Shown: positions 936 to 56,727 of the stretch, one piece after another
Layout of the letters: the number at the start of each line of letters is the position of its first letter
Position numbering within the stretch: position 1 is the stretch's first letter
NCBI GenBank assembly: GCA_016235585.1
Contig: JACRJY010000100.1
Span: 1 to 64,000 of the forward strand
Direction of reading: 5' to 3'
Length of the DNA stretch: 64,000 bases
Source: Verrucomicrobiota bacterium
GTDB taxonomy: Bacteria > Verrucomicrobiota > Verrucomicrobiia > Limisphaerales > JACRJY01
Notes under the pieces: model-generated
The model's input: only the letters and a program-made list of their open reading frames with translations
What the model was told of the DNA's origin: nothing
Databases searched by the model: none
Made by a program: the position numbers and the translations under genes

Positions 936-2204
936 TCAGTGCTGGTAGATCGGCAGGAAGTGGTATTTCACCGAGAGGCTCAAGAGGCCAAGCGCCGTGC
1001 AGTAAATCCGTCCGGCGGAGTATTCCTGCGTGTCGTGGCCGATCCACGAGCCGTCGTCCTGCTGGTTGGCGAGAAGGAGCTGCTCGGTGCGCTGCTTGGC
1101 GCGGGCGGCGAACTCGCCGCCGCGCTTCTGCATCCCCTGCGAGTAATAATACGTGCCGTAAAAAAACCATTTGTCATCGAGCGACACCGGGTGCTCGTGC
1201 AGCCACGCGGTGGAGCCGGCGGTTTCGGGTGCCTCGTAATGCCCGCACACCTGCAAGGCCAGCAGGCCGGCGGCGGCGGTGGCGTATTTCGCGGGCGCGC
1301 CGGGCTGGTAGGCGCATGCGCCGACGGGCCGGGTGTAGCGCCCGAACTTGTCCGGCTTCTGATCGTAGCTGCGCTTCAGGTAGGCCACGGCGAAATCAAT
1401 CGCCTCCTTCGGCACGGTGAACCCCGCGTTCTTCGCCGAGCGCAGCGCCATCACCTGCCAGACGGTGATGGACAGGTCGGCGTCGCCCGAATCCGGCGAG
1501 TAACGCCAGCCGCCCTCGAACTTCTTGTCGAATTTTTTCACGCGCTGCGAGCGCAGGATCAGTTCTATGGCCTTCTGGCAGCGTTCGCGCACCATCCGGT
1601 CCTGCTGCTTGTCCATGCCCATGCCGAGCATTTCGGTGAGGGCCAGCGTGGCGATGCCGTGGCCATACATCCGCGAGCCGTCGCGCACGCCGAGGTAGCC
1701 GTCGCGGTCGCGGCCCAGGGCGTCGGGCTTCGCGAGCAGGTCAATCGCCCGCCGCAGCGCCTCGCCCTCGCGCGTGCGGTCAATCGGCTGGTGGCCGACG
1801 GACGCGATGGCCATCATGCCCAGCGCCGTCATCGCCACCTCGTTCACGCCGGAATGCTCCTTGTCGGTGAACGCGCCCGTCCTGTCCTGCTGGGCCACGA
1901 GGTAGCCCACCGCGCGCGCGGCGGCGTCATCCACCCGGTCGGCGCGGCAAAACCCGCCACCCCAAAGCCACGTGATGAGCACGAGCAGGCGGGAAAACAA
2001 CGTGAGGCCGGCACGGGCTTTGAAACTCGAATTCCGAATCGCTGAAGCTCGAAGGAAGCCCGAAACTCGAAACGCGAAACCCGTCGCCGGCTGCCCGTCA
2101 AAAAGACACCGCCCCACCGTCTGTGAACGGTTTCTGTTCCGGCTTTCGATTTTCGAGCTTCCTTCGCCTTTCGAGTTTCGCTCTTCGGATTTTGCCAAGC
2201 TCAT
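936..2204 (-). CDS. Prenyltransferase/squalene-cyclase-like repeat protein
   Basis: The protein has 422 residues from the ATG at 2204, which overlaps the DUF4175 stop codon (ATGA). It carries alpha/alpha-toroid repeats with QW-like motifs such as GGWRYS, QQDDGSWIG and GYLGVRDGSRMYGHGIATLAL, as in terpene cyclase/prenyltransferase folds. The acidic DxDD motif of true squalene-hopene cyclases is not seen, so cyclase activity is doubtful. In PVC bacteria such proteins often sit near DUF4175/DUF4159/MoxR genes. The first 60 or so residues are encoded by a 7-bp-period repeat array. The ancestral start may be the TTG at 2000, just before a hydrophobic signal-like segment (LFSRLLVLITWLWGGG). Confidence 0.75.
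   Translation of the reverse strand: MSLAKSEERNSKGEGSSKIESRNRNRSQTVGRCLFDGQPATGFAFRVSGFLRASAIRNSSFKARAGLTLFSRLLVLITWLWGGGFCRADRVDDAAARAVGYLVAQQDRTGAFTDKEHSGVNEVAMTALGMMAIASVGHQPIDRTREGEALRRAIDLLAKPDALGRDRDGYLGVRDGSRMYGHGIATLALTEMLGMGMDKQQDRMVRERCQKAIELILRSQRVKKFDKKFEGGWRYSPDSGDADLSITVWQVMALRSAKNAGFTVPKEAIDFAVAYLKRSYDQKPDKFGRYTRPVGACAYQPGAPAKYATAAAGLLALQVCGHYEAPETAGSTAWLHEHPVSLDDKWFFYGTYYYSQGMQKRGGEFAARAKQRTEQLLLANQQDDGSWIGHDTQEYSAGRIYCTALGLLSLSVKYHFLPIYQH
2018..2195. repeat. Degenerate heptad inverted array (GA-rich arm, TC-rich arm)
   Basis: On the plus strand the left arm reads in units of seven, for example GAAACTC GAATTCC, followed by related GA-rich units. The right arm reads TTTCGAT TTTCGAG and related units to about 2195. 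The arms are roughly reverse complements across a central spacer of about 70 bp. The array covers the 5' end of the squalene-cyclase-like gene and directly abuts the DUF4175 stop. A closely similar element lies at 26742-26885. Confidence 0.7.
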
Positions 2205-5200
2205 GGCGCCTTGTCCTTCGCCTTTTCCGCGACGGCGCGGAAGTAGGCCTCGACCTGCGTGCGGTATTCGCCGGCCACCCCTTCGCGCTGCGCCTCGGAC
2301 AGCCCCTGCGCGAGCTTCGGCGGCAGCTTGCCCCATTCGCCCGCCCGCAGCGCGCGCAACTGCGGCAGTGTCGTGATGCTCTCCGGCCCGCCGACAATCG
2401 AGGCGCCGCTGCCCTCGCCGCCCGTCTCGGACTTCGGCTTGTCGCCGGGCGTCTTGCCCTGCGACCGCGCGGCGGCCATCGCGGAACGCTGCGCCTCCGC
2501 GGCGGCGTTCATCGCGCTGGACGCGGCGGAAGGCTTGCCCGCCGACTGCGACGCAGGCTTCTCACCCTTGCCGCTGCTGTTGCCAGATTGAGGAGCGGAA
2601 TCCGCCTTTGGAACTTCGCCGCCACCGGCGGACGAACCGGGCTGCGCCTTCCCGTCGCTTTCGCCCGCGCCGCTTTGCTGGCCGCTGCTGCCCGGTTGCG
2701 AATTCATTTCCGAATCGAGGCGGTCCAGCGCGCGGGCCATCCACTTCCCCTGCTCCTGTGAAGTGCCATCGGAGGCCTGCTGGCCACCGGCGGCGGAACG
2801 GTTGCCGGGCAGCTTCATCGCCGCGTCGAGCGCCTGCACCTGCTGCTCGACGGCGGTGCGCGCGGTGTCGAGCGCCGTCTGCGCCGCCGCGACGGTGGGC
2901 GCTTTTTCCAGCGCGCCCTGCGCTTCGGGAATCGTCTGGCCGCCGACCGTCTGCGTCTTCTGGCCGACGGCCTGGAGCGCGTTGCCCTGCTCGGTGCCGA
3001 GGCGCATCTCGTGCCGGCCCGCGCGCTCGATGTCGCCACCGGCCTGCGAAACATTGCCGGCAATCGCCGGCTGCTGCGCGGCGGCCTGCGCGCGCGCCTG
3101 CTGCGAAACCGGCGCGCCGGAGGAGCCGGTCGGCGGCTTCGAGTCCGACGAGGATTCCTGCTTGCCCGAGGAATTCCCCGGGGTGGGCGTCTGGTTCGAC
3201 GACGCGGTGGAGCCGGAGGAATTGTTCCCACCCTTGCCCATCCCGGCGAGCGCGGCGGCGATCTGCTCGGCCTGCTGGGCCATGCTGGCCGCCTGCTGCG
3301 CGGCGGCTTCCGCGCGGGCCTTCGCGGTCTGTCCCGCGCCCTGGCCCGGGTTCGGCTTGGCACCGGGTTTGCCCGCGCCGCTTCCTTGGCCGCTGGACTG
3401 TTGCTCGTCTGCGCCCTGGCCTTTGCCGGCCGGCTGCGAGTCGGAACCTTCGCCCTTGCCCTGCGGTGAAGATTTTTTTCCCGGCTGGCCCCGGCCCTGG
3501 CCGCTCTCGTTTGATTTCGCGCCGGGCTTGCCGCCGCTGCCGTTCGGGTTTTCCGCCGGCGCGTTCGGCCCGCTCTGGCCCTTGGCGGACGGCGGTGTTT
3601 CCGCGCCCTGCCCGGCGTTTTCCGCGGAAGGAGAATTCTTCCCGGACTTTCCAGATTTTCCCGCCTGCTCCGCCTGTCCCGCCTTCGCGGCGGCGGCGCT
3701 CACCCCTTGTCCCGCCTGCTGCAGCTTCGGCGTGAGCGCGGCCATCTGGCTGGCGAGCTGGGACGGCGGCGCGGAAAAATCCGCCGGCACTCCACTGGCG
3801 GCGGCCTTCATCGCTTCCTGGGCGCGCTGCAATTCCGCCTGCGCCTTCGCCCCGGCCTGCGCGGCCTGCTGGCCGAGGGCGGGGATCTCCTTGCGCGCCA
3901 TCTCACCGGCCTGCTGCGCGAGCTGCCGCGCCTGTTTGGCAAGTTCCTGCACAGGAGTGGCCGGTTGCGGTTGCGCGGACGGTGCACCCGGCTTGGCGGG
4001 CGCGCTGCCGGAGAGAGCGTCGGCCAGTTCCTTCGCCTGCTGCGCCATTTGCGCGGCCTGTTCGGCGGCCTTGGTGGACTTCTCGTTGACGTTGGTGGCG
4101 GCGCGCTCGATGTCGCCGTCAACGGCTTCCTTGGACAGTTGCTCGCCCTTCTCGGCGGCGGCGCGGAATTCCTTGCTCGCCTCGCGCAGCGGCTCGACGA
4201 GGCCGGCCACTTCCTTGACCATTTCGTAGGGCGATTTCCGGCCCGCCGTCTGCGCCTTGGTGGCGACCTCGCGCGTGGCGCGCAGGGCGCGGCCAATCTC
4301 GCGCGACACGTCGAGCCGCGCCTTGGAGGCCTCGCGGCTGATCTCCGTCACGGTCTTGATGCCCAGCTCGCGGGCCTGCGCGGCAAGCTGCTTCGCCATC
4401 TCGACCAGATGCTCCGGCACGACGGAGGCCGACTGCCTGCCGGAATTTTCAGCAGGCGCGGGCGTTGCCGCCGCCGTCGCTGCGGCGGTCAAATCATCGG
4501 CCAGACTTTTCGCCTGCTGTGCGAGTTCCCCGGCGCGTTCGGCGGCGCGTTCAGCGGAGGCCTGCGCCGTTTCCGCCGCCTGGACTTGTGATTCCTCCGG
4601 CGCGGCGGACTTGATTTTCGCGGCCTTGAGCGCGGCGGACTTGAAACTGTTCGCCGCCGTTTGCAGCGGCTTCACGAGGTCGTTCACCTCGCGGGCGAGT
4701 TCGGGCGAAAGGGCGGTGAACTCGCCCGGCATTTTTTCCGCGACGGTTTGCAACGACTGCCGCGCCAGATCGGTTTCGGCGGTCGCGTTGGCGCGGGCGC
4801 GGGCGGCGTCCTCGGCGACGGCGGGCGTGTCCTTCTCCGCCATCTCCCGCGCGGCCTCGGCGATCTGCCGGGCGCGCTCGGCGGCGGCGGCAAGCTGGCC
4901 CTGTGTGTGCGCGTCGCTTTCGAGCGCGCGGGCGAGCTCCTGCTCGCGGCGTGCGGAATTTTGCAGCGTGTCCTTCGCCTGACCGAGCGTGTCCTTCGCG
5001 ATGTTCTCCAGCTCCTGGCGCATCGCCGGGTTCTGCCCCAGTTCCTGCTCCAACTGTCGCAGCATCGCCTCGGGGCTTTGCTTCGCCAGCTCGTTCAGCT
5101 TCTCCGCGAGCGCGAACTGTTCGTCAAGCATGGCCTTGATGCCCAGCTCCTCCTCGGCGCGGCGCAGCGCCTGCCGCGAATCCGCCGCCGCACCGGCTTC

Positions 5201-8200
5201 GAGATTCTTGTAGTGCTGCGCGAGCTGGTTCAACGCGCTGGCGAGCTTCTGCTGCTGCGCGGCGGCCTCGGTGAGCGCGGTGCGCTGGAGGAGATATTCG
5301 TTCGCCTGCGCCGCCTCGCGCAACGCGTCCTCGGCCCTGGGCGGCGGCTCGCGGAGCAGCGCGATGGCGTCATCGGCGTCGCGGACGCGCTCGCGGTTTT
5401 CCTCGCGGCCCAACTCCTGAATGTTGGCCTCGCGGCGGATGGCCTGCTGCAATTCGTCGAGCTGCTTGTTCAAATCCTGCTGCTTCGCGAGGATGTCCTT
5501 CGCCTCTTCGGGCACCTTGGCAGCCTCCTTGTCGGGCTTCACCGCGTCGGAACTTTTCTTCTGCAAATCCTCCGAGGTGCGGGCGAGGCCGGCCATCATG
5601 TCGCTCAACTTGGGCGCGGACTTGCCGAGCACCTGCCGCGCGTCCGCCAGCAGCGGCTCCAGCTCGCGAAGGGCCAGCAGCAGGTCTTGATAAACTTTCT
5701 CGGCGGGAACGGGCACCGGCTGCGCCGCCGGGGCCGAGCCTTGTCGGCGGGTCATTTCCTGCGCGACGGTCTGCGCCGCCGGGCTGGGCGGCACGGCGGC
5801 GACGAGTTCGCCGACGCGCGCGGGCAGGCCCGCCTTCTTCAAATCGCCCGGCACCGCTTTCATCCGCGCGCCCATCCAGTTCCAATCCTTCGGCTGGCTG
5901 GTGAGCGCGTCGCTGGACTGGTTTTCCCACTGCTCCTGCTGGGCAAGATGCTTCGCGCCGCGCGTCAGCTCGCCCAGGCCGCAGCCGGCCTCGATGGTGC
6001 GGAGCGCCTTTTCCATTTCGCGGACGGGTTCGAGCATCCGCGTCGAAACGGGCGTGCCCGCGACGGCGCGCAGCGCGCTCAATGACTGCGCCGCCTTGCC
6101 GAGGTCGGCGACGAACTGCAGCTCGGTGTCGCGCCGCACTTCTTCGGCCTCGGCGCGATCCTTGATCTGCTCGACCGCGCCGCGCCAGTTCGCGGCGGCA
6201 TTTTCCTGCGCGGTCTTGAGCTGCGCCTCGCTGCGCGCCTGCGACTGCGCGTTGCGCTTGCCCGGCCCGGAGAGCTGGCGCTCCGCCGCCGCGATTTCGC
6301 CGAGGTTGCGGCTCACGCGCTCCAGCAGCACGGTCGAGGCGGGCGCGAGCTTGGCCAGCGTGTCGCGGGCCTTGTCCGCGCGGACGCCCAGCTCGCGGTT
6401 GAGCGGCCTCATGTCCACCGCCGCCAGCTCGGTGCTCTTCTGCATCCGCGTGGCGCGGTCGAGCAGCTCCAGCGTGAAGGTCTCGGCGGCGAGGGTCTTT
6501 TCCATTTCCTCGCGGTTCCGGCTCAAGTTGTCGTAAGGCTTGGCCGTGCGGTCGGCCAGCGCGCGGGGCGCGCGCGCCTTCAAGTCCTTGAGCAACTCCT
6601 CGACGACGCGCGTCTCCTGCGCCGCGCCGCCTTGCCGGCGGGCGAGCCGCGGCCACGCGTTGGGATTTTCCCGCGCCTCGGCGGCGGCCTGGCGGTTCAT
6701 GCGATCCTGCTCGCGCGCGAGTTGGGCGAGGTTCTCCACAATCACGTCGCCTTCCTCCGCCGCGAACAAATCCGCGTAGGCCAGTTCCAGCGCTGCGATG
6801 AGGTCGGCCAACGCCTGCGGGGCGCGGACGGCCTGGCGCACATTCGGCGCGGAGAGGTTTCCGCTGATTTCCTTGAGGGCCGTCTCCAGTTGCGCCCGGT
6901 CTTCCGCAATGACGCCGCGCCGCGCCCGGCTCAACGCCATGCCCAGCCGCGCCAGGTCGGCGGATTCGCGCCCGGGGCGCGCGTGCGGCAGGGCTTCCTT
7001 GAGCTTCTCCCAGCATTTGTTCAACGCCTGCTCCATGTCGCCCAGCCCGGTGAGCGCGCCGAGGAGGAGTTGCTTCGCCTGTAATTCATTTCCCTTGAGG
7101 GCGCGGTTCGACAAGTCGGCTGCCTTGGCCTTTTGCGCGGTGTTGCGCGCGGCGGCCAGCGACTCGTGCAAAGCCCGCTTGGCCTCCAGCGCGAGCAGCC
7201 GCTTCGCGTTCAACCCCGACGTGCCGATGACGAGGTGCAGCGGCGCGGACTCGGCGCGGCTGCCCTTGAGGTCAATGGCGACGAGCTTCGTCGTCACGCG
7301 GTCGCCGGGCGTGGCCTTGAGCTGGAGCAAATCCCACGCGCGCGTGACGACGAGGTTGGTTTTGTTTTCCTCCGAGAGCGTGAAGTCGCCGAACGGTTCC
7401 TCGTTCACGAGCACCGACTGAAACACGCGCGCCAGCCCGATGTCATCACCGGCGGTGCCTTGCAGCATGAGCACCTCCTCCGGCGCGACGACCAAGTCCT
7501 GCCTCGGCTGGTCAATCGTGACGCGCGGCACGAGGTCGGGGATGGGCCGCAGCTCGTATTGCGGGCTGAACTTGTTTTCAAACGCCGTCTCCGCCGCGAC
7601 GAGATGCACGCGGTAGGCGCCCGCGAACTTCAGCGGCACCACGCCCTCGGCGCGGTTCGTGGAGACGGTGAGCGCGAGGAAGTTGGTCTTCCCCTTGATT
7701 TCCATTTCGAGCGACGCGCGCTGGAGCGGCTGGTTGGCGGCGAAGGAAAGTTTCACCTCGCTGCCTTCGAGCGCGATGAGGTCGCCGTGATCCTCGACGG
7801 CGCGGCGCGGCGCGAGGCGCGAATAGGCGGGGAACTGATACGTCTTCTCGAACTTCACCACGCCGGGGCGCGGGCGCGTCTCGACGCTGAACTTGCGCGT
7901 CATGCCGTCGCCGGCGCGCACGCGGAACTGGAGATTGTCCGCGCCGAGCGGCACGCCGGCGGAGAAGCGCCGTCCGCCAAGCGGGTTCATCGTGAGGCGC
8001 GCGCGCTCGCCGGTTTTGGAAAATGTTTCGAGTGTGACCTTGCGCGGTTCGGGGCCGGAGATTTCCACGACGACGGTCATCGTGTCGCCCTGCGGTTGCC
8101 AGCGGTCGGCGGCGGTGGGTTCCAGCACGGCGATCTTCACGCGCGAAACCCGCTCCACGTCCGCCAGCGGCGCGAAGGCCCGCGCCATCAACCGGTCGTA

Positions 8201-8722
8201 GTGAAAACCCGGCACGAGCAGGAGCGCGCCGCACACCACGAGCACCGCCGCCGCCGCGCGCAGCCAGAACGCGATCAACTGGCGCGGCAGGAGCGATTCG
8301 ATGCGGAGATTCCGCAGGCGGCTGGCGACGTTCTCCTGCAGCAGCGCGCGGAACACCGGCGAATCCCATTGTGCGGCGGCGGAGAGCTTGCCGAGTTCCA
8401 CGGCGGAGAGCAGGTCTTCGCGGAGTTGCGGCTCGGCTTTTTCCACGAGGCGGGCCAGTTCGCGCGGGCCGGGCAGATGCAGCAGCGCGCGGCCACTCGT
8501 CCACCAGAACACCGCGAGCGTGACGGCATAACAGACACCGCTCAACGCCAGCCGCAGCCCGTCCGGCATCAGGACGAGGAAGTCCGCGACGGCCACGAGC
8601 GTCATGCCCGCGAGCAGCGTGAAGAGGCTGCCCGCCACACCGCGCGCGAGCACGAGCCGCCGCCACCGGCGGCCAAAGGCCTCCAGTTTTTGCGCGATCA
8701 GCGGGTCGAGCGATGCGGGCAT
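2201..8722 (-). CDS. DUF4175-family giant membrane-anchored coiled-coil protein
   Basis: This 2173-residue protein has three hydrophobic segments near its N-terminus (about 29-51, 56-75 and 149-171). An extracytoplasmic-looking beta-rich region follows (about 180-500), then very long Ala/Glu/Gln/Lys-rich helical stretches with strong coiled-coil character. A Gly/Ser/Gln/Pro low-complexity region lies at about 1650-2050. The N-terminal layout and the LVEKAEPQLREDLLSAVELG motif match the DUF4175 family of Planctomycetota and Verrucomicrobiota. Its function is unknown; a scaffold at the inner membrane is an inference. It is followed with a 4-bp overlap by the squalene-cyclase-like gene, suggesting translational coupling. 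The long internal repeats make this gene prone to assembly error. Confidence 0.85.
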   Translation of the reverse strand: MPASLDPLIAQKLEAFGRRWRRLVLARGVAGSLFTLLAGMTLVAVADFLVLMPDGLRLALSGVCYAVTLAVFWWTSGRALLHLPGPRELARLVEKAEPQLREDLLSAVELGKLSAAAQWDSPVFRALLQENVASRLRNLRIESLLPRQLIAFWLRAAAAVLVVCGALLLVPGFHYDRLMARAFAPLADVERVSRVKIAVLEPTAADRWQPQGDTMTVVVEISGPEPRKVTLETFSKTGERARLTMNPLGGRRFSAGVPLGADNLQFRVRAGDGMTRKFSVETRPRPGVVKFEKTYQFPAYSRLAPRRAVEDHGDLIALEGSEVKLSFAANQPLQRASLEMEIKGKTNFLALTVSTNRAEGVVPLKFAGAYRVHLVAAETAFENKFSPQYELRPIPDLVPRVTIDQPRQDLVVAPEEVLMLQGTAGDDIGLARVFQSVLVNEEPFGDFTLSEENKTNLVVTRAWDLLQLKATPGDRVTTKLVAIDLKGSRAESAPLHLVIGTSGLNAKRLLALEAKRALHESLAAARNTAQKAKAADLSNRALKGNELQAKQLLLGALTGLGDMEQALNKCWEKLKEALPHARPGRESADLARLGMALSRARRGVIAEDRAQLETALKEISGNLSAPNVRQAVRAPQALADLIAALELAYADLFAAEEGDVIVENLAQLAREQDRMNRQAAAEARENPNAWPRLARRQGGAAQETRVVEELLKDLKARAPRALADRTAKPYDNLSRNREEMEKTLAAETFTLELLDRATRMQKSTELAAVDMRPLNRELGVRADKARDTLAKLAPASTVLLERVSRNLGEIAAAERQLSGPGKRNAQSQARSEAQLKTAQENAAANWRGAVEQIKDRAEAEEVRRDTELQFVADLGKAAQSLSALRAVAGTPVSTRMLEPVREMEKALRTIEAGCGLGELTRGAKHLAQQEQWENQSSDALTSQPKDWNWMGARMKAVPGDLKKAGLPARVGELVAAVPPSPAAQTVAQEMTRRQGSAPAAQPVPVPAEKVYQDLLLALRELEPLLADARQVLGKSAPKLSDMMAGLARTSEDLQKKSSDAVKPDKEAAKVPEEAKDILAKQQDLNKQLDELQQAIRREANIQELGREENRERVRDADDAIALLREPPPRAEDALREAAQANEYLLQRTALTEAAAQQQKLASALNQLAQHYKNLEAGAAADSRQALRRAEEELGIKAMLDEQFALAEKLNELAKQSPEAMLRQLEQELGQNPAMRQELENIAKDTLGQAKDTLQNSARREQELARALESDAHTQGQLAAAAERARQIAEAAREMAEKDTPAVAEDAARARANATAETDLARQSLQTVAEKMPGEFTALSPELAREVNDLVKPLQTAANSFKSAALKAAKIKSAAPEESQVQAAETAQASAERAAERAGELAQQAKSLADDLTAAATAAATPAPAENSGRQSASVVPEHLVEMAKQLAAQARELGIKTVTEISREASKARLDVSREIGRALRATREVATKAQTAGRKSPYEMVKEVAGLVEPLREASKEFRAAAEKGEQLSKEAVDGDIERAATNVNEKSTKAAEQAAQMAQQAKELADALSGSAPAKPGAPSAQPQPATPVQELAKQARQLAQQAGEMARKEIPALGQQAAQAGAKAQAELQRAQEAMKAAASGVPADFSAPPSQLASQMAALTPKLQQAGQGVSAAAAKAGQAEQAGKSGKSGKNSPSAENAGQGAETPPSAKGQSGPNAPAENPNGSGGKPGAKSNESGQGRGQPGKKSSPQGKGEGSDSQPAGKGQGADEQQSSGQGSGAGKPGAKPNPGQGAGQTAKARAEAAAQQAASMAQQAEQIAAALAGMGKGGNNSSGSTASSNQTPTPGNSSGKQESSSDSKPPTGSSGAPVSQQARAQAAAQQPAIAGNVSQAGGDIERAGRHEMRLGTEQGNALQAVGQKTQTVGGQTIPEAQGALEKAPTVAAAQTALDTARTAVEQQVQALDAAMKLPGNRSAAGGQQASDGTSQEQGKWMARALDRLDSEMNSQPGSSGQQSGAGESDGKAQPGSSAGGGEVPKADSAPQSGNSSGKGEKPASQSAGKPSAASSAMNAAAEAQRSAMAAARSQGKTPGDKPKSETGGEGSGASIVGGPESITTLPQLRALRAGEWGKLPPKLAQGLSEAQREGVAGEYRTQVEAYFRAVAEKAKDKAP

Positions 8723-8799: not shown

Positions 8800-9192
8800 T
8801 CACTCCGCCGGCACGACCATCTTGAACGGCGGGATGCGGGTGAGGACTTTGCGGTTCTGCGCGTCCACGCCGAGGTAGCTGCCTTCGGCGATGGCCCAGC
8901 CGGAGTCGAGGATGTGCCGGCTGTTGTAGCTGAATTTTTCGCCCGGCGCGATGGTGGGAAATTCGCCGACCACGCCGTCGCCCTCGACGGCGGTGATTTC
9001 GCCCCGGTCGTTTTTCACCACCCACTTGCGGCCCTTGATGGTCACGGGGCCATCGGTGTCGTTGTGGATGGAGATGAAATAGACGAACGAGTGCGGACGA
9101 TCCGGCGGCGCGGGCAGGTGCGGCGCGTGAACCACGCGGTCCACGGTCACGCGCAGGCCGGGAGGCTCGATGATTTCGGAGGGGTTGCTCAC
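8800..9192 (-). CDS. apaG: ApaG-domain protein (Co2+/Mg2+ efflux protein family)
   Basis: The ApaG fold is clear: FVYFISIHNDTDGPV, then KGRKWVVKNDRGE, VEGDGVVGEFPTIAPGEKF and a C-terminal IPPFKMVVPAE. From the GTG at 9192 the protein has 130 residues, close to the usual 125. A longer version starting with a TTG at 9276 would follow the ilvB stop with a GGAG-like site, but its first 28 residues would come from a double palindrome (9223-9266), so I prefer the GTG. The family is an immunoglobulin-like beta-sandwich linked to cobalt/magnesium resistance and, in eukaryotes, to F-box proteins. Its molecular function remains unclear. Confidence 0.85.
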   Translation of the reverse strand: MSNPSEIIEPPGLRVTVDRVVHAPHLPAPPDRPHSFVYFISIHNDTDGPVTIKGRKWVVKNDRGEITAVEGDGVVGEFPTIAPGEKFSYNSRHILDSGWAIAEGSYLGVDAQNRKVLTRIPPFKMVVPAE

Positions 9193-9222
9193 ACGGCTGC
9201 GGGCGAATTGCTTGGTTACATT

Positions 9223-9266
9223 CCGCCGGGCGGGTCGCCCGGCGGCACAGGCCAGTGGCCTGTGCC
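9223..9266. repeat. Double palindrome at the ilvB-apaG junction
   Basis: Two perfect back-to-back palindromes are present. CCGCCGGGC at 9223-9231 pairs with GCCCGGCGG at 9237-9245, and GGCACAGGC at 9244-9252 pairs with GCCTGTGCC at 9258-9266. They lie just after the ilvB stop. They could end or pause ilvB transcription, or be a dispersed repeat; related GACAGGC/GCCTGTC arms occur at 36665-36765. Confidence 0.8.
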
Positions 9267-9277
9267 ACCAAGGCAAA

Positions 9278-11203
9278 TTACTTCTCCACCTTCCAGATCA
9301 TGTCGGCCACGGTGCGGTTGGCCGGGATGAACGGCAGCACGTGCTCGGCATACGGCGTCACCACGTCGAGGACGTAGGGCGTTTTGGCGTCGAGCATCCG
9401 CTGGAGCGCGGCGCGCAGGTCGCGGCGGAACATCACGCGCTCGGCGGGGACGTTGAAGCTGTTGGCGACGCGCACGTAGTCGGGATAAATCTGGCTGCGG
9501 TCGTCGGGGTTGCCGAGGTAGGTGTGGCCGCGGTTGCCGGCGTAGAAGTTGTCCTCCCATTGCACGACCATGCCGAGGTGCTGGTTGTTGAGGATGATCG
9601 CCTTGGCGGCGATTTTCTCGACGTGCGCGGTGGCCAGCTCCTGGATGTTCATGAGGAACGAGCCGTCGCCGTCAATGTCAATGACCTGCTTGTCCGGGTG
9701 CGCGACCTTGATGCCGAGCGCCGAGGGATAGCCGAAGCCCATCGAGCCGAGGCCGGCGCTGGTGATGAACTGGCGCGGGAACTTGTATTTATACCACTGC
9801 GCCGACCACATCTGGTGCTGGCCCACGCCGGTGGTGATGTAGGCCTCGCCCTTCGTCATCTCCCACAACATTTCGATGACCATCTGCGGCAGGATGACCT
9901 GATCCTCCTGGCCCTTCATGTGATCCTTCATGTGGTCGGAATTGGAAATCTCCTGCGTGACGGCGTATTGGAACGGCGCTTTCTTCTTCCACTCGGCAAT
10001 CTGTGCGTGCCACGCGGTGAATTTCTTCGTGATGGGCCGCTTGGCGATGAGGGCGTTGAGGCGCGTGAGTGCGTCCTTCAAGTCGCCGACGATGGGCAGG
10101 TGGGCGCGCTTGTTCTTGTTGATCTCCGACGCGTCAATGTCGAGGTGAACGATGGTGCCGTGCTTGCAGAATTCCTCGAACTTGCCCGTCACGCGATCGT
10201 CGAAGCGCACGCCGAACGCGAGCAGCAAGTCCGCGCCGTCCTTCATTTTCACCATCGGGTCGGCGGGGTTTTTGCGCTGCTGGTATTCGCCGTTGACGGC
10301 CCAGTTGGCGTAGGCCGCGCCGTGCATGCCGAGCCAGCGCAGCGAGAGCGGATGCGTCTCCTCGAACGCGCCGATGCCCATGATGGTCGTGGTGACGGGA
10401 ATCTGCGCGGCCTGCGCGAACTTCCGCAGTTCCGCGCTCGCGTCGCCGGTGATGATGCCGCCGCCGCAGTAGAACACCGGGCGCTCGGACTTCTCGATGA
10501 GGCCGATGATTTCGTTCAACGCCAAGTCGTCCGCCTTCAAGTCGGGCTGGTTGTAGCCGGGCAAACCCTTCTTCACCTCGTCCAGCGTGGGCCAGACGGG
10601 CTGGGCTTTTTGCTGCTGAATGTTCTTCGGCAGATCAATCACCACCGGGCCGGGCCGACCGGACTGCGCGATGTAAAAGGCTTCCTTGACGATGCGCGGG
10701 ATGTCGTTGATGTCCGTGACGAGGTAGCTGTGCTTCACGATGGGCAGCGTCAGGCCGATCATGTCCGTCTCTTGAAACGCGCCGCGGCCGATCATCACCT
10801 GTGGCACCTGGCCGGTGATGGCGACGAGCGGGCAGGAATCCATGTAGGCGTCCGCGATGGCGGTGACGAGGTTCGTTGCGCCGGGGCCGCTGGTGCCCAT
10901 GCAGACGCCGGCCTTGCCGGTGGAACGGGCGTAGCCCTCGGCGGCGAAGCTGCCGCCCTGCTCGTGGCGCGGGAGAATGGTGCGAATCTTCGTCGAGTGA
11001 GTGAGCGACTGGTGAATCTCCATGCTCGCGCCGCCGGGATAGGCGAAGATGACCTCGACGCCCTCGCGTTCGAGCGCCTCGACGAGGATGTCGCGGCCCC
11101 ACATGGCCTGGCCGACCTCGGCGCGGGCGGGCGCTGGTTGTCCACGCTTCAGCGTGGCGGCGGGCGTCTCTTTTTTCACGGACTTCGCAGTGGTCTTGCT
11201 CAT
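9278..11203 (-). CDS. ilvB: Acetolactate synthase large subunit
   Basis: This 641-residue ThDP-dependent enzyme condenses two pyruvates to acetolactate (valine/leucine), or pyruvate plus 2-ketobutyrate (isoleucine). Visible are the N-terminal PYR domain with YPGGASMEIHQ and the catalytic Glu in RHEQGGSFAAEGYA, a central FAD-type domain, and the C-terminal ThDP/Mg site with GDGSFLMNIQELATA and NNQHLGMV. The ATG at 11203 was chosen because upstream in-frame sequence runs through the terminator hairpin. The N-terminal tail of about 40 residues (Lys/Ala/Pro-rich) is longer than usual. The small subunit gene ilvN is not adjacent. Expression is probably controlled by the attenuator at 11241-11274. 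Confidence 0.95.
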   Translation of the reverse strand: MSKTTAKSVKKETPAATLKRGQPAPARAEVGQAMWGRDILVEALEREGVEVIFAYPGGASMEIHQSLTHSTKIRTILPRHEQGGSFAAEGYARSTGKAGVCMGTSGPGATNLVTAIADAYMDSCPLVAITGQVPQVMIGRGAFQETDMIGLTLPIVKHSYLVTDINDIPRIVKEAFYIAQSGRPGPVVIDLPKNIQQQKAQPVWPTLDEVKKGLPGYNQPDLKADDLALNEIIGLIEKSERPVFYCGGGIITGDASAELRKFAQAAQIPVTTTIMGIGAFEETHPLSLRWLGMHGAAYANWAVNGEYQQRKNPADPMVKMKDGADLLLAFGVRFDDRVTGKFEEFCKHGTIVHLDIDASEINKNKRAHLPIVGDLKDALTRLNALIAKRPITKKFTAWHAQIAEWKKKAPFQYAVTQEISNSDHMKDHMKGQEDQVILPQMVIEMLWEMTKGEAYITTGVGQHQMWSAQWYKYKFPRQFITSAGLGSMGFGYPSALGIKVAHPDKQVIDIDGDGSFLMNIQELATAHVEKIAAKAIILNNQHLGMVVQWEDNFYAGNRGHTYLGNPDDRSQIYPDYVRVANSFNVPAERVMFRRDLRAALQRMLDAKTPYVLDVVTPYAEHVLPFIPANRTVADMIWKVEK

Positions 11204-11240
11204 GGTTTTGCTTGGTTTGGCCGGCGGCGGGCCGGGGCAA

Positions 11241-11274
11241 ACAAAAAACCCACGACCGCTGCCAGCCGTGGGTT
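11241..11274 (-). terminator. Intrinsic terminator in the ilvB leader (attenuator)
   Basis: On the minus strand an 8-bp perfect stem, AACCCACG (11274-11267) with CGTGGGTT (11254-11247), encloses a 12-nt loop and is followed by a T-rich tract to 11241. It lies 38 nt upstream of the ilvB ATG and 18 nt after the leader peptide stop. CCGCTG in the leader-peptide coding region can pair with CAGCGG in the loop and 3' side, giving a candidate antiterminator. Together these are the parts of a classical amino-acid attenuator. Confidence 0.85.
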
Positions 11275-11291
11275 GTTGTCGAAATCTGCGT

Positions 11292-11369
11292 TCAGGCCCG
11301 ACAAGCACCAGCGGCGTCGCCGACTACGACGACGACCAGCGGGACGACTTGCAGGGCCAGTTGTTTCAT
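11292..11369 (-). CDS. Val/Leu-rich leader peptide of ilvB
   Basis: This 25-codon ORF runs from the ATG at 11369 to the TGA at 11292. It begins MKQLALQVVPLVVVVV and then continues GDAAGACRA, with seven Val and three Leu codons concentrated in residues 4-16. This composition, its place just ahead of an intrinsic terminator and its position upstream of ilvB match ilv-type leader peptides. In that mechanism, ribosome stalling on charged-tRNA shortage prevents terminator formation. A TTGACC box (11407-11402) with a poor -10 match 17 nt downstream is a weak candidate promoter. Confidence 0.8.
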   Translation of the reverse strand: MKQLALQVVPLVVVVVGDAAGACRA

Positions 11370-11422
11370 TGCGGCAGAAGGTAAATGGCCCGCCACACTC
11401 CGGTCAAGCGTGGATTTTGGCC

Positions 11423-11806
11423 TCACAGCCGTTCCCGCCCTGCGTAGCCGGAGTCGAGGTCGTGCCAGAACTCGATCTTGTCCTCGCCGGTTTCCCAGCA
11501 GAGGAAGACTTCGTTGCCGCCGATGAGCGCGGGGAAATCCACGAGGCCGCGTTCGAGATCCTTGATCTGAATTTCGCGCTGCTGGAACTCGCGGAACACG
11601 TCGCGGATGTCCGCCATCGCGCGCGTCCAGCGGTCCACGAGGCCGCCGCCGGCGTCCGCACCCTCGGCCATCGTGCGTCCGATGTGCGTGTCGAGCCGCC
11701 CGACCTCGGTGCGGAGGCGGTGAAGCTGTTCGATCCAGAGGCGGATGCGTGGCAGGAGCGCCTCCGCCTCTTCCACGGTGTAATGTTTGCCAAAACGGTG
11801 CGCCAT
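11423..11806 (-). CDS. DUF2203 family protein
   Basis: The protein has 127 residues. It begins with the family hallmark YTVEEAEALLPRIR and continues with a helical stretch. The C-terminus is QIKDLERGLVDFPAL, then FLCWETGEDKIEFWHDLDSGYAGR, which is the typical DUF2203 ending. It is cytoplasmic and small, and its function is unknown. It lies 19 bp downstream of the TPR lipoprotein gene on the same strand, so the two are probably cotranscribed. It ends 53 bp before the ilvB leader peptide. Confidence 0.88.
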   Translation of the reverse strand: MAHRFGKHYTVEEAEALLPRIRLWIEQLHRLRTEVGRLDTHIGRTMAEGADAGGGLVDRWTRAMADIRDVFREFQQREIQIKDLERGLVDFPALIGGNEVFLCWETGEDKIEFWHDLDSGYAGRERL

Positions 11807-53805: not shown

Positions 53806-55917
53806 TCACGTCCGGTTCCGCAGGAACATCGTGCCCTCGACCTCCGCCGGGTGCGCGGGGCCGGCCGCCGGCGCGCTCTCGCGCCACGGGACTTCGTAGA
53901 TGTTCACCGCCGCCTTGATGCCCTTGACCATCACCGGCGCCTGCGGCACGCACGTCGCCGCCAGCTCCGGCGCGTGCTTGAGCAGCTCCTGGTAGGTGGA
54001 CTCGCCGATGATGATGCGCCCGCGCCCGGAGACGCCCTCGAGCCGGCTGGCGAGGTTCACCTCGCGGCCAAACACGGTGTAGTTGAGGATGTGCTCGTTC
54101 GAGCCCATCAGGCCGACGATGGCGACGCCGGAGTTGATGCCCGTGCCGAGCGAGAGCAGCGGCAGCAGCGCCTGCGGCGGCTTGCCGTAGAGTGCGCGGC
54201 CCTGGTTTTCGTTTTCGATGCGCTTGTTCTCCTCGGCGCGTTCGAGGTTCAGCCGGTGCATGGCGCGCTGGGCGTCCACTGCGGCGCGCACGCAGGCGGC
54301 GGCGTGGTTGTCGTTCGGCACCGGCGCGCCCCAGAAGGCCATCACGCAGTCGCCGATGTATTTGTCGAGCGTGCCGTTGTGCTTCTTGATCTGGTCGGCA
54401 ATGGTGGCGAGATAGATGTTGACCGTGGCGAGGGTCGCGCTGGCCGAGGCGTCGAAGTGCGCCTCCGCCTCCGCGCCCTCCAGTTTGTTGGTCCGCACAA
54501 ATTCCTCCGCCCGCGACTGCATCGCGTCGGTCATCTCGGTGAACCCGCGCACGTCGGCGAAGAACACCGTGATGTGCCGCCGCCCGCCGCCGAGGTTGAG
54601 CTTCTCCGCGCCGAGCAGCTCGTTCACCACGTCGGGCGAGACGAGCCGCGAGAAGACCGCCTTCACGCGCCGCTTCTCTGACTGCTCGAAGAGGAGCTGG
54701 TAGGTCGCGAGGCTCACGTGGTTGAGCAGCAGCCCGCCGCCCACGGGCAGGATGATCGGCAGCCAGTAGTGGAACTTCACGAACAGCAGCAATGCGACGA
54801 TCACATAGACCGCCCCCGCCACGGCCACGCCCACGGTCGCCCACGGCGGCTGGAGCTTGAGCGAGACGGCGGCGGACGCGGCGGCGAGCAGGAGAATCAA
54901 AACCAACTCCAGCCCGTAGGGGCTGCGCGTGATGAAGTCGTTCATCAGCACGGAATTCGCCACGTTCCAGTGCTTGCTCACCAGATACGTGTCGCGATCC
55001 AGCGGCGACGCGCCGATGTCCGAGATGTTGTTGCCCGCGCCGATGGAGCCGATGACGACAATCTTGCCGCGCCAGTCGGGATCATCCTCGGATTTGGCGC
55101 GCAACATTTCCCGCAGGGCGCCCTTCGTGAGGCGGGGATCGTTCCACGCCAGGCTCCAGTTCACATGGAAATAGCCCTCGTGATCCAGCGGGATGACGCG
55201 CTCGACCCCGCCCGCGCCGCGCAGGGTGATCCGCCCCTTCTCGATGACCGCCTGCGTGAGATCGAGGCCGAGCGAGCGGGCGGCAAGCACGATGCCGAGG
55301 TGCCAGATGCGCCCGATCTTCGGGTCGTCCTTGAAGGCCCGCGTGCGGCGCAGCACGCCGTCGGAATCCGTGTCGCTCGTGGCGTGGCCTACGGCAAAGG
55401 CGTTCGTGCGGAACAGATCCGCCGGCGCGATGGCCGTCCATTTGTCGCCCAAAGTCTCGCCGAAGGCCGCCAGCGTCACGTTGCCCGCCGCCTTGAGCTG
55501 CTGGGAAAAATACTCGTCCGACGACATTTCCACGCCGCCGCGCTTCAGGTTGGTTTCGGGCCGGGGCGTGTCGAGTTCGCTGAACAGGATGTCAAAGCCG
55601 ATGGCCCCCGCGCCCTCGGCGGTGAGTCTCTCCACCGCGCGCCCGTAGAGCCGCCGGGGCAGCGGCCACTTGAAGCCCATCTGCTCGTTGATGATCTGCA
55701 AGTCCTCGTCGTCAATGAACAGCGCGCCGAGGTTGGTGGCGACGGGCGGCTTGGACTCAAAGGCCTGGCGCACGCGCCAGTCGTAGGTCATCCACTCCAG
55801 CCGCTCGAAGGCGTCGGCGTGGGGGCTGAAGCGGGGGAGGGCCTGAAAAATACAGACGACGAGCGTCGTGGCCGCGACGATGAGGACGGGCGCGAGTTTG
55901 AGAGATTTCGCTTTCAC
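53806..55917 (-). CDS. CHASE2-domain adenylate/guanylate cyclase
   Basis: The protein has 703 residues from the GTG at 55917. After an N-terminal hydrophobic segment comes an extracytoplasmic CHASE2 sensor (about 45-320; motif FERLEWMTYDWRVRQ, then LFIDDEDLQ). Three transmembrane helices (about 340-420) follow, then a class III nucleotidyl cyclase domain (about 440-690). The two metal-binding Asp residues are in TVFFADVRGFTEMTD and KYIGDCVMAFWGAP; the second motif has Cys where Ala is usual. An external signal is probably converted into cAMP or cGMP. A GTG at 55926 or TTG at 55935 is possible; the latter lies inside a terminator. The partner could be the cNMP-binding GNAT-like protein at 36773-38365. 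Confidence 0.9.
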   Translation of the reverse strand: MKAKSLKLAPVLIVAATTLVVCIFQALPRFSPHADAFERLEWMTYDWRVRQAFESKPPVATNLGALFIDDEDLQIINEQMGFKWPLPRRLYGRAVERLTAEGAGAIGFDILFSELDTPRPETNLKRGGVEMSSDEYFSQQLKAAGNVTLAAFGETLGDKWTAIAPADLFRTNAFAVGHATSDTDSDGVLRRTRAFKDDPKIGRIWHLGIVLAARSLGLDLTQAVIEKGRITLRGAGGVERVIPLDHEGYFHVNWSLAWNDPRLTKGALREMLRAKSEDDPDWRGKIVVIGSIGAGNNISDIGASPLDRDTYLVSKHWNVANSVLMNDFITRSPYGLELVLILLLAAASAAVSLKLQPPWATVGVAVAGAVYVIVALLLFVKFHYWLPIILPVGGGLLLNHVSLATYQLLFEQSEKRRVKAVFSRLVSPDVVNELLGAEKLNLGGGRRHITVFFADVRGFTEMTDAMQSRAEEFVRTNKLEGAEAEAHFDASASATLATVNIYLATIADQIKKHNGTLDKYIGDCVMAFWGAPVPNDNHAAACVRAAVDAQRAMHRLNLERAEENKRIENENQGRALYGKPPQALLPLLSLGTGINSGVAIVGLMGSNEHILNYTVFGREVNLASRLEGVSGRGRIIIGESTYQELLKHAPELAATCVPQAPVMVKGIKAAVNIYEVPWRESAPAAGPAHPAEVEGTMFLRNRT

Positions 55918-55931
55918 CGCCGCCACCCTAA

Positions 55932-55969
55932 ACAAAAACCCCAGAGCAACTCAAGGCTGCTCTGGGGTT
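55932..55969 (-). terminator. Intrinsic terminator between fecR-like and cyclase genes
   Basis: AACCCCAGAGCA (55969-55958) pairs perfectly with TGCTCTGGGGTT (55948-55937) around a 9-nt loop, followed by TTTTG on the minus strand. It is the strongest terminator in the window and ends FecR-gene transcription. The cyclase start must therefore lie after it. Confidence 0.92.
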
Positions 55970-55995
55970 TTGCAGAAAAATCAGTTCTCAATCAC

Positions 55996-56727
55996 TCAAC
56001 CTTCACGATCCTTCTCGCCTTCAGTTTTATAAGGCGGTTGCGGATCTGGCGGAGGGAGATCCTTCTTAACAGTGATAGTCGTTTCAACATCAGTGGTGCC
56101 ACCGTCACGAGGAGGAGGAGGAGGGGGCAACCCCGGGGGGTTTGCAACAACAGTCGGCGCACCGCCCGGAGTTGTGGGAGGAATTGCGGTCTGCCCGGCA
56201 TTGAGTGTGACCGGAGGACTCTGAACCCCATTGATCACAAAAATCACCACCACGGTGCCGCCGGTGACTGATGTCGTGCCGTCGGAGCCGATGATGAACG
56301 AGGTGCCGCGGATGCCCGCCACGCCCTTGGCCGTCTTGATTTCATACTTGGAGGCGGCGGAAATCTTCTTGGCGTTGCCACTCACCTTGCCCTCTTTGAG
56401 GTCAAGAAAGGTTTCGCCGGTGTCCGCACCCTTGATGTCGAGCTTGTCGAGGGAGAGGGTGGAATTCGCCTTGATGGTCAGTTGGCCGCCATTGACGCCG
56501 AGGTCAATGCTCACCTCGGAACCCGGCCCGGTCACGATGGTGGAGCCTTCTTTCACAATCTGGCCTTTATACGCCGGAGCGCCGTTGACGGTCGCGCCGC
56601 CGGATATCTTGTAAATTTCAGCCGAGCCTTTGAGCGCGCCAGGGTTGGCCGCCGAGGCGGTGGTGACGAGGGCCGTCACCGCAAACAGCGCGGCGGCGGA
56701 CTTGAGGAGAGAACCGAGTGTTTTCAT
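55996..56727 (-). CDS. FecR-domain exported protein
   Basis: The protein has 243 residues with a signal peptide ending VTTASA. The FecR fold is indicated by GQIVKEGSTIVTGPGSEVSIDLGVNGGQLTIKANSTLSLDKL and KYEIKTAKGVAGIRGTSFIIGSDG. It has neither a transmembrane anti-sigma helix nor a neighbouring sigma factor, so it is probably a surface or structural variant, not the iron regulator. The C-terminal 55 residues are Pro-rich (PPGLPPPPPPRDGG). The same-strand neighbours are O-antigen ligase and the cyclase. Confidence 0.88.
   Translation of the reverse strand: MKTLGSLLKSAAALFAVTALVTTASAANPGALKGSAEIYKISGGATVNGAPAYKGQIVKEGSTIVTGPGSEVSIDLGVNGGQLTIKANSTLSLDKLDIKGADTGETFLDLKEGKVSGNAKKISAASKYEIKTAKGVAGIRGTSFIIGSDGTTSVTGGTVVVIFVINGVQSPPVTLNAGQTAIPPTTPGGAPTVVANPPGLPPPPPPRDGGTTDVETTITVKKDLPPPDPQPPYKTEGEKDREG

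Follow-up and report, generated by a model that had tools for sequence, protein, structure and literature searches.

The ilvB locus and its leader region

The analysed window, a 64,000-nucleotide stretch of a Limisphaerales draft genome, carries on its minus strand an ilvB gene for the large subunit of acetolactate synthase (667 bits against TIGR00118, cut-off 538). It is the sole copy in the 4.6-Mb draft genome, and its product makes the amino acid that the leader described below would sense. The features of the locus are collected in Table 1. As originally predicted, ilvB is not linked to ilvN, which adjoins ilvC on another contig (locus L110 on contig C90; ilvB lies on contig C62). The ilvN-ilvC pair sits downstream of a small xseB-like ORF, far from ilvB. 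At the position directly 3' of ilvB, ilvN of an Escherichia coli-type ilvBN operon was not found, and the gene there encodes an ApaG-like protein (84 bits against the ApaG model, below the cut-off of 106). The window also contains a long repetitive ORF rich in Ala, Gln and Lys. The region upstream of hisG (14647, minus strand) was inspected for an attenuator; no His-rich leader and no terminator were seen.

Table 1 Features of the ilvB locus and of the leuA leader of the same genome.
Feature	Position	Strand	Remarks
ilvB	9278-11203	minus	acetolactate synthase large subunit, putatively controlled gene
Intrinsic terminator	11239-11274	minus	stem 11274-11247, loop GCAG, U-tract 11248-11239
Region 3	11265-11284	minus	TTTCGACAACAACCCACGGC; 3' strand of antiterminator, overlaps 5' arm of terminator
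Region 2	11298-11315	minus	GCCGCTGGTGCTTGTCGG; partner of region 1 or region 3
Five-Val run	11322-11336	minus	codons 12-16, GUC GUC GUC GUA GUC
Rare Val codon GUA	11325-11327	minus	codon 15, 4 codons ahead of region 2; from codon counts
Region 1	11348-11358	minus	GGCCCTGCAAG; 5' strand of 1:2 helix, within leader ORF; from fold and covariation
Leader ORF	11369 (ATG) to 11292 (TGA, stop included)	minus	MKQLALQVVPLVVVVVGDAAGACRA; 25 codons
-10 box (tentative)	11378-11383	minus	TACCTT, 18-nt spacer; placed from its position in relatives
-35-like box	11402-11407	minus	TTGACC, predicted leader promoter
Upstream gene	11423-11806	minus	ends ~53 nt before leader ORF
ApaG-like gene	8800-9276	minus	directly downstream of ilvB
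Repetitive ORF	2201-8722	minus	2173 residues
leuA leader	contig C53, upstream of 54699-56099	minus	locus L163; VNRNLNNLLLIRALPPGGAAVGL, then CCCCACTGCCAGCCCGGCGGTGGGG and U-tract

Translation of the short ORF ahead of ilvB gave the predicted peptide, in which seven Val and three Leu residues stand among 25 codons, a cluster of pathway-product codons as found in classical attenuators. The window holds 699 distinct short ORFs when both strands are counted, and this one alone reaches seven Val within ten residues; the runner-up has five and is not followed by a terminator. No Shine-Dalgarno sequence is evident for the leader ORF.

Between the leader ORF and ilvB lies an intrinsic terminator, again as predicted, with the stem AACCCACG/CGTGGGTT forming 8 Watson-Crick pairs (12 with G.U included) ahead of a U-tract. 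The order of ORF and hairpin was correctly given in the original prediction, but the gap from stop codon to terminator start is 17 nt rather than 18. Folding of the 147-nt leader was compared with shuffled sequences and gave a z of -4.4, with 0 of 200 shuffles folding as well. The plus strand folded no better than its shuffles.

A promoter is predicted immediately ahead of the leader. Of 76 relatives, 75 have TTGAC at 32-45 nt ahead of the leader start, compared to 2.8% of control windows. A T/A-rich stretch resembling a -10 box follows with appropriate spacing in the relatives but is weak in the window itself. Transcription would then start at about 11371, a few nucleotides at most from the leader start codon, and would leave the ORF with hardly any untranslated sequence before it, a nearly leaderless arrangement.

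Conservation across Limisphaerales

The ilvB loci of relatives were gathered from whole genomes and named records, and 80 leaders, including that of the window, were aligned. Among loci of the Verrucomicrobia subdivision 3 or Limisphaerales type with enough upstream sequence, nearly all have a Val-rich ORF together with a terminator that follows the pattern CCCACGGCTGGCAACGGTCGTGGG; ilvB loci of other groups lack a Val-rich ORF with a terminator of this type. All 80 aligned leaders contain an open, in-frame ORF with a start codon, and each encodes at least three Val (median 6; certain relatives have just three). Upstream of region 2, 33% of leader residues are Val (76 leaders), compared to 7% in the IlvB protein encoded in the window. 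For the terminator, 98.3% of pair cells are preserved. Relatives devoid of the Val codons or the hairpin, which would speak against an attenuator, did not appear among these roughly 80 leaders, all of which keep both.

A covariance model, R1, covering the terminator and the final part of the leader, matched 268 of the 293 genomes examined from the order and 151 of the 154 good ones. Of 388 genomes drawn phylum-wide, 25 were matched, two of them members of the order. On inspection, the phylum-wide matches outside the order were mostly ordinary terminators of other genes, with one exception (locus L128, described at the end). Additional R1 matches in five genomes of the order proved to be leuA leaders or ordinary terminators. 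In the genome of the window, a second ilvB-type attenuator was not found with R1: the ilvB match alone was significant, the next having E values of 0.07 or worse. No Val-rich ORF followed by a terminator was found at 29 ilvB loci from other families and orders of the phylum. Four metagenome-assembled genomes titled Acidobacteria or Akkermansia muciniphila (L043, L056, L067 and L086) carry the ilvB and attenuator of the order (78-81% identical), and these records are probably mislabelled.

These data bear on whether the hairpin might be nothing more than an ordinary terminator, serving perhaps the upstream gene, with the ORF incidental. That gene is encoded on the same strand and ends close to the leader, and generic terminators of similar sequence are found elsewhere. 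However, a conserved promoter box separates the gene from the leader, the arrangement is tied to ilvB in relatives, and the ORF, its Val codons and both of the competing helices described below are conserved, which makes this explanation very improbable.

Competing RNA structures

Two further helices can form in the leader. Pairing of regions 1 and 2 encloses most of the Val codons and provides a protector helix that overlaps the putative sensing codons. Region 2 can instead pair with region 3 (GCCG..GGU..UUGUCGG with UUUCGACAA..ACC..CGGC), yielding an antiterminator that includes the 5' arm of the terminator and is mutually exclusive with it; region 3 paired with region 4 is the terminator.

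The comparison across relatives suggested in the original prediction was carried out, and both helices covary. Two-sided changes numbered 40 for the 2:3 antiterminator, against 16 expected in shuffles, and 60 for the 1:2 helix, against 31, with 0 of 500 shuffles doing as well in either case; the shuffles leave sequence relatedness in, and these figures are supporting evidence, not probabilities. The 2:3 antiterminator is paired in 85.5% of cells across the 80 sequences, with weak inner pairs in one clade of relatives, and its register is a clear optimum among all slid registers. The strongest single exchange is C-G to U-A at pair 174-201, in 31 and 24 sequences.

Fold prediction of alternative structures, likewise suggested beforehand, agreed with this pairing. 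For transcripts that stop within the terminator loop, modelling a ribosome at Val codons 12-15 gave the 2:3 antiterminator as the minimum-energy fold. For the complete transcript, minimum energy favoured the terminator even when region 2 was free. The energies were -17.8 kcal/mol for the antiterminator, -20.3 kcal/mol for the terminator and -38.9 kcal/mol for the 1:2 arm. Since the terminator is slightly more stable than the antiterminator in the full transcript, the switch would have to be kinetic, as in known attenuators.

A different antiterminator, CCGCTG paired with CAGCGG, had been proposed at first. Both motifs are present in the window (11314-11309 and 11261-11256) and form six perfect pairs there, three of which are nearly always kept in relatives. 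Across the 80 sequences, however, the motifs pair in only 76% of cells, two of the six pairs are broken in half of the sequences, and the covariation was matched by shuffles (105/500 and 146/500). The same columns are better explained by 2:3 pairing. Attenuation through CCGCTG/CAGCGG is accordingly regarded as highly unlikely, and the 2:3 helix is taken as the candidate antiterminator.

Valine codon choice and ribosome position

The Val codons of the leaders are strongly biased. GUA accounts for 46.5% of leader Val codons but, at these loci, for 2.0% of those in ilvB itself (odds ratio 43). None of the 230 Val codons in five genes of the window is GUA. The commonest position of GUA in the leaders is codon -4 relative to region 2 (44 of 80), which is also where the single GUA of the window leader stands. 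A ribosome covers about 12 nt downstream of its decoding position at its 3' edge. If codon 15 occupied the A site and the 3' edge lay at +12, region 2 would begin at the very next nucleotide.

According to selective-charging theory, leaders are biased to codons whose translation responds most strongly to starvation (PMC1183508). The GUA enrichment and its position are signs of ribosome sensing beyond the presence of the ORF, and the bias could partly stem from other RNA constraints on these codons.

A Leu-rich leader upstream of leuA and other possible forms of control

A weak R1 match in one relative was located upstream of leuA, a gene matching 2-isopropylmalate synthase models, and came with a Leu-rich leader. 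A search with the LeuA protein then identified a Leu-rich leader and terminator before leuA in about 20 genomes of the order (L148-L173), including the genome of the window (Table 1). Towards its end, the leuA leader is similar to the 3' arm of the terminator and can pair with the 5' arm; this pairing, the predicted antiterminator of leuA, is kept in 90.2% of cells and covaries. The match between leader codons and pathway product occurs twice, Val for ilvB and Leu for leuA, and provides strong, independent support for attenuation.

Control of some ilv and leu genes in other phyla relies on ligand-binding riboswitches, T-boxes or protein-controlled antiterminators, and such a device could in principle operate here with the Val-rich peptide secondary. 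Rfam covariance models run on the window and 16 other loci recovered tRNAs only, all else being chance matches far below gathering scores. No large conserved domain exists beyond the ORF and hairpins, and the repeated fit of codon identity to product also argues against such a device, which we hold to be very unlikely.

The tail of the peptide, mostly encoded by region 2, is conserved as DAVGACR in relatives (DAAGACR in the window). Columns 156-159, 162 and 163 have entropies no higher than 0.23 bits, whereas the unpaired columns 160, 161, 167 and 168 reach 1.6-1.9 bits. Because variation is nearly absent from paired columns yet unconstrained at unpaired positions of the same codons, the tail is best read as RNA conservation rather than peptide conservation. 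A functional small protein encoded by a conserved short gene, to which the tail might otherwise point, is exceedingly unlikely, since tail conservation tracks the pairing columns and, outside them, the peptide is constrained neither in sequence nor in length.

Proposed mechanism and relation to known attenuators

The ilvB leader shows every feature of a classical ribosome-mediated attenuator that can be tested in sequence. The ORF, terminator, promoter, competing helices, codon bias and the Leu/leuA parallel together strongly support the original proposal of ribosome-stalling attenuation, and the leader is very probably a transcription attenuator sensing charged tRNA-Val. It would almost certainly turn ilvB down when valine is plentiful. 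From the elements observed, with their conservation, covariation and codon bias, we infer promoter use, leader translation, termination and a response to valine.

Transcription would begin just ahead of the leader ORF, with a ribosome trailing the polymerase. When Val-tRNA is ample, the ribosome would reach the stop codon and cover region 2. Region 3 would then be available to region 4, the terminator would form, and ilvB would not be made. When Val-tRNA is scarce, the ribosome would stall in the Val run and mask region 1, exposing region 2. The exposed region 2 would pair with region 3 as the antiterminator, absorbing the 5' arm of the terminator and allowing read-through into ilvB. If the leader were not translated, 1:2 pairing would lead to the terminator by default.

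A broader reading is slightly favoured over its negation: attenuation in Limisphaerales may be an order-wide regime that arose independently, in which nearly leaderless ORFs sense Val (ilvB) and Leu (leuA) separately. In this reading, the rare codon GUA would be kept one ribosome footprint ahead of the antiterminator, so that the switch depends on how far a single tRNA-Val isoacceptor is charged.

Among the closest known systems, alongside related enteric attenuators of branched-chain amino acid synthesis, is ivbL-ilvBN of Escherichia coli, in which a Val/Leu-rich leader ORF, competing hairpins and an intrinsic terminator precede the acetolactate synthase gene, as they do here. The present family differs in that ilvN lies outside the operon, the leader is predicted to be nearly leaderless, the Val codons are mainly GUA and GUC, and the host belongs to a different phylum. 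Attenuation of ilvBN is cited in PMC1183508. The Corynebacterium ilvB-II motif, or ilvBNC attenuator, also places a uORF with branched-chain codons, a terminator and an antiterminator before ilvB (PMC10272879, PMC11857589), but it is found in Actinobacteria, belongs to an ilvBNC operon and has mixed I/L/V codons, whereas the Verrucomicrobiota element has no Rfam match. The ilvB-OMG and Leptospira ilvB motifs likewise have a uORF with branched-chain amino acid codons before ilvB and proposed attenuation, with at least three consecutive Val codons in the Leptospira motif; they have 41 and 7 representatives, compared to an order-wide distribution here (PMC10272879), and no Rfam family matched the window or its relatives. 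The Leu-rich attenuator of the Staphylococcus aureus ilv operon shares leader-peptide attenuation of branched-chain amino acid synthesis, but is a leucine system of Firmicutes and stands closer to the leuA case than to ilvB (PMC5794164).

A 2010 survey that added cases from Firmicutes noted that, until then, classical attenuation had been demonstrated in no phyla other than Proteobacteria and Actinobacteria (PMC2965389). No paper tying Verrucomicrobia or Verrucomicrobiota to leader-peptide attenuation was found in the open-access literature, subscription papers and preprints being outside that scope. The leaders would therefore constitute a family of classical ribosome-mediated attenuators that spans the order and is not listed in Rfam, familiar in kind and new in lineage. 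The known range of classical attenuation would gain a deep branch of the PVC group, and hundreds of covarying natural examples would become available for testing predictions on codon choice, ribosome footprint and competing helices. The family also predicts the regulation of two amino-acid pathways in mostly uncultured bacteria.

Outside the order, the exceptional R1 match at locus L128 (1501-1598, minus strand) consists of an unrelated Val-rich leader, MLNVIRLVVVNVVVVVTNVVSAR, and a terminator before a second, 41%-identical kind of IlvB from another family of the class. This leader possibly represents a separate origin of Val-leader control.
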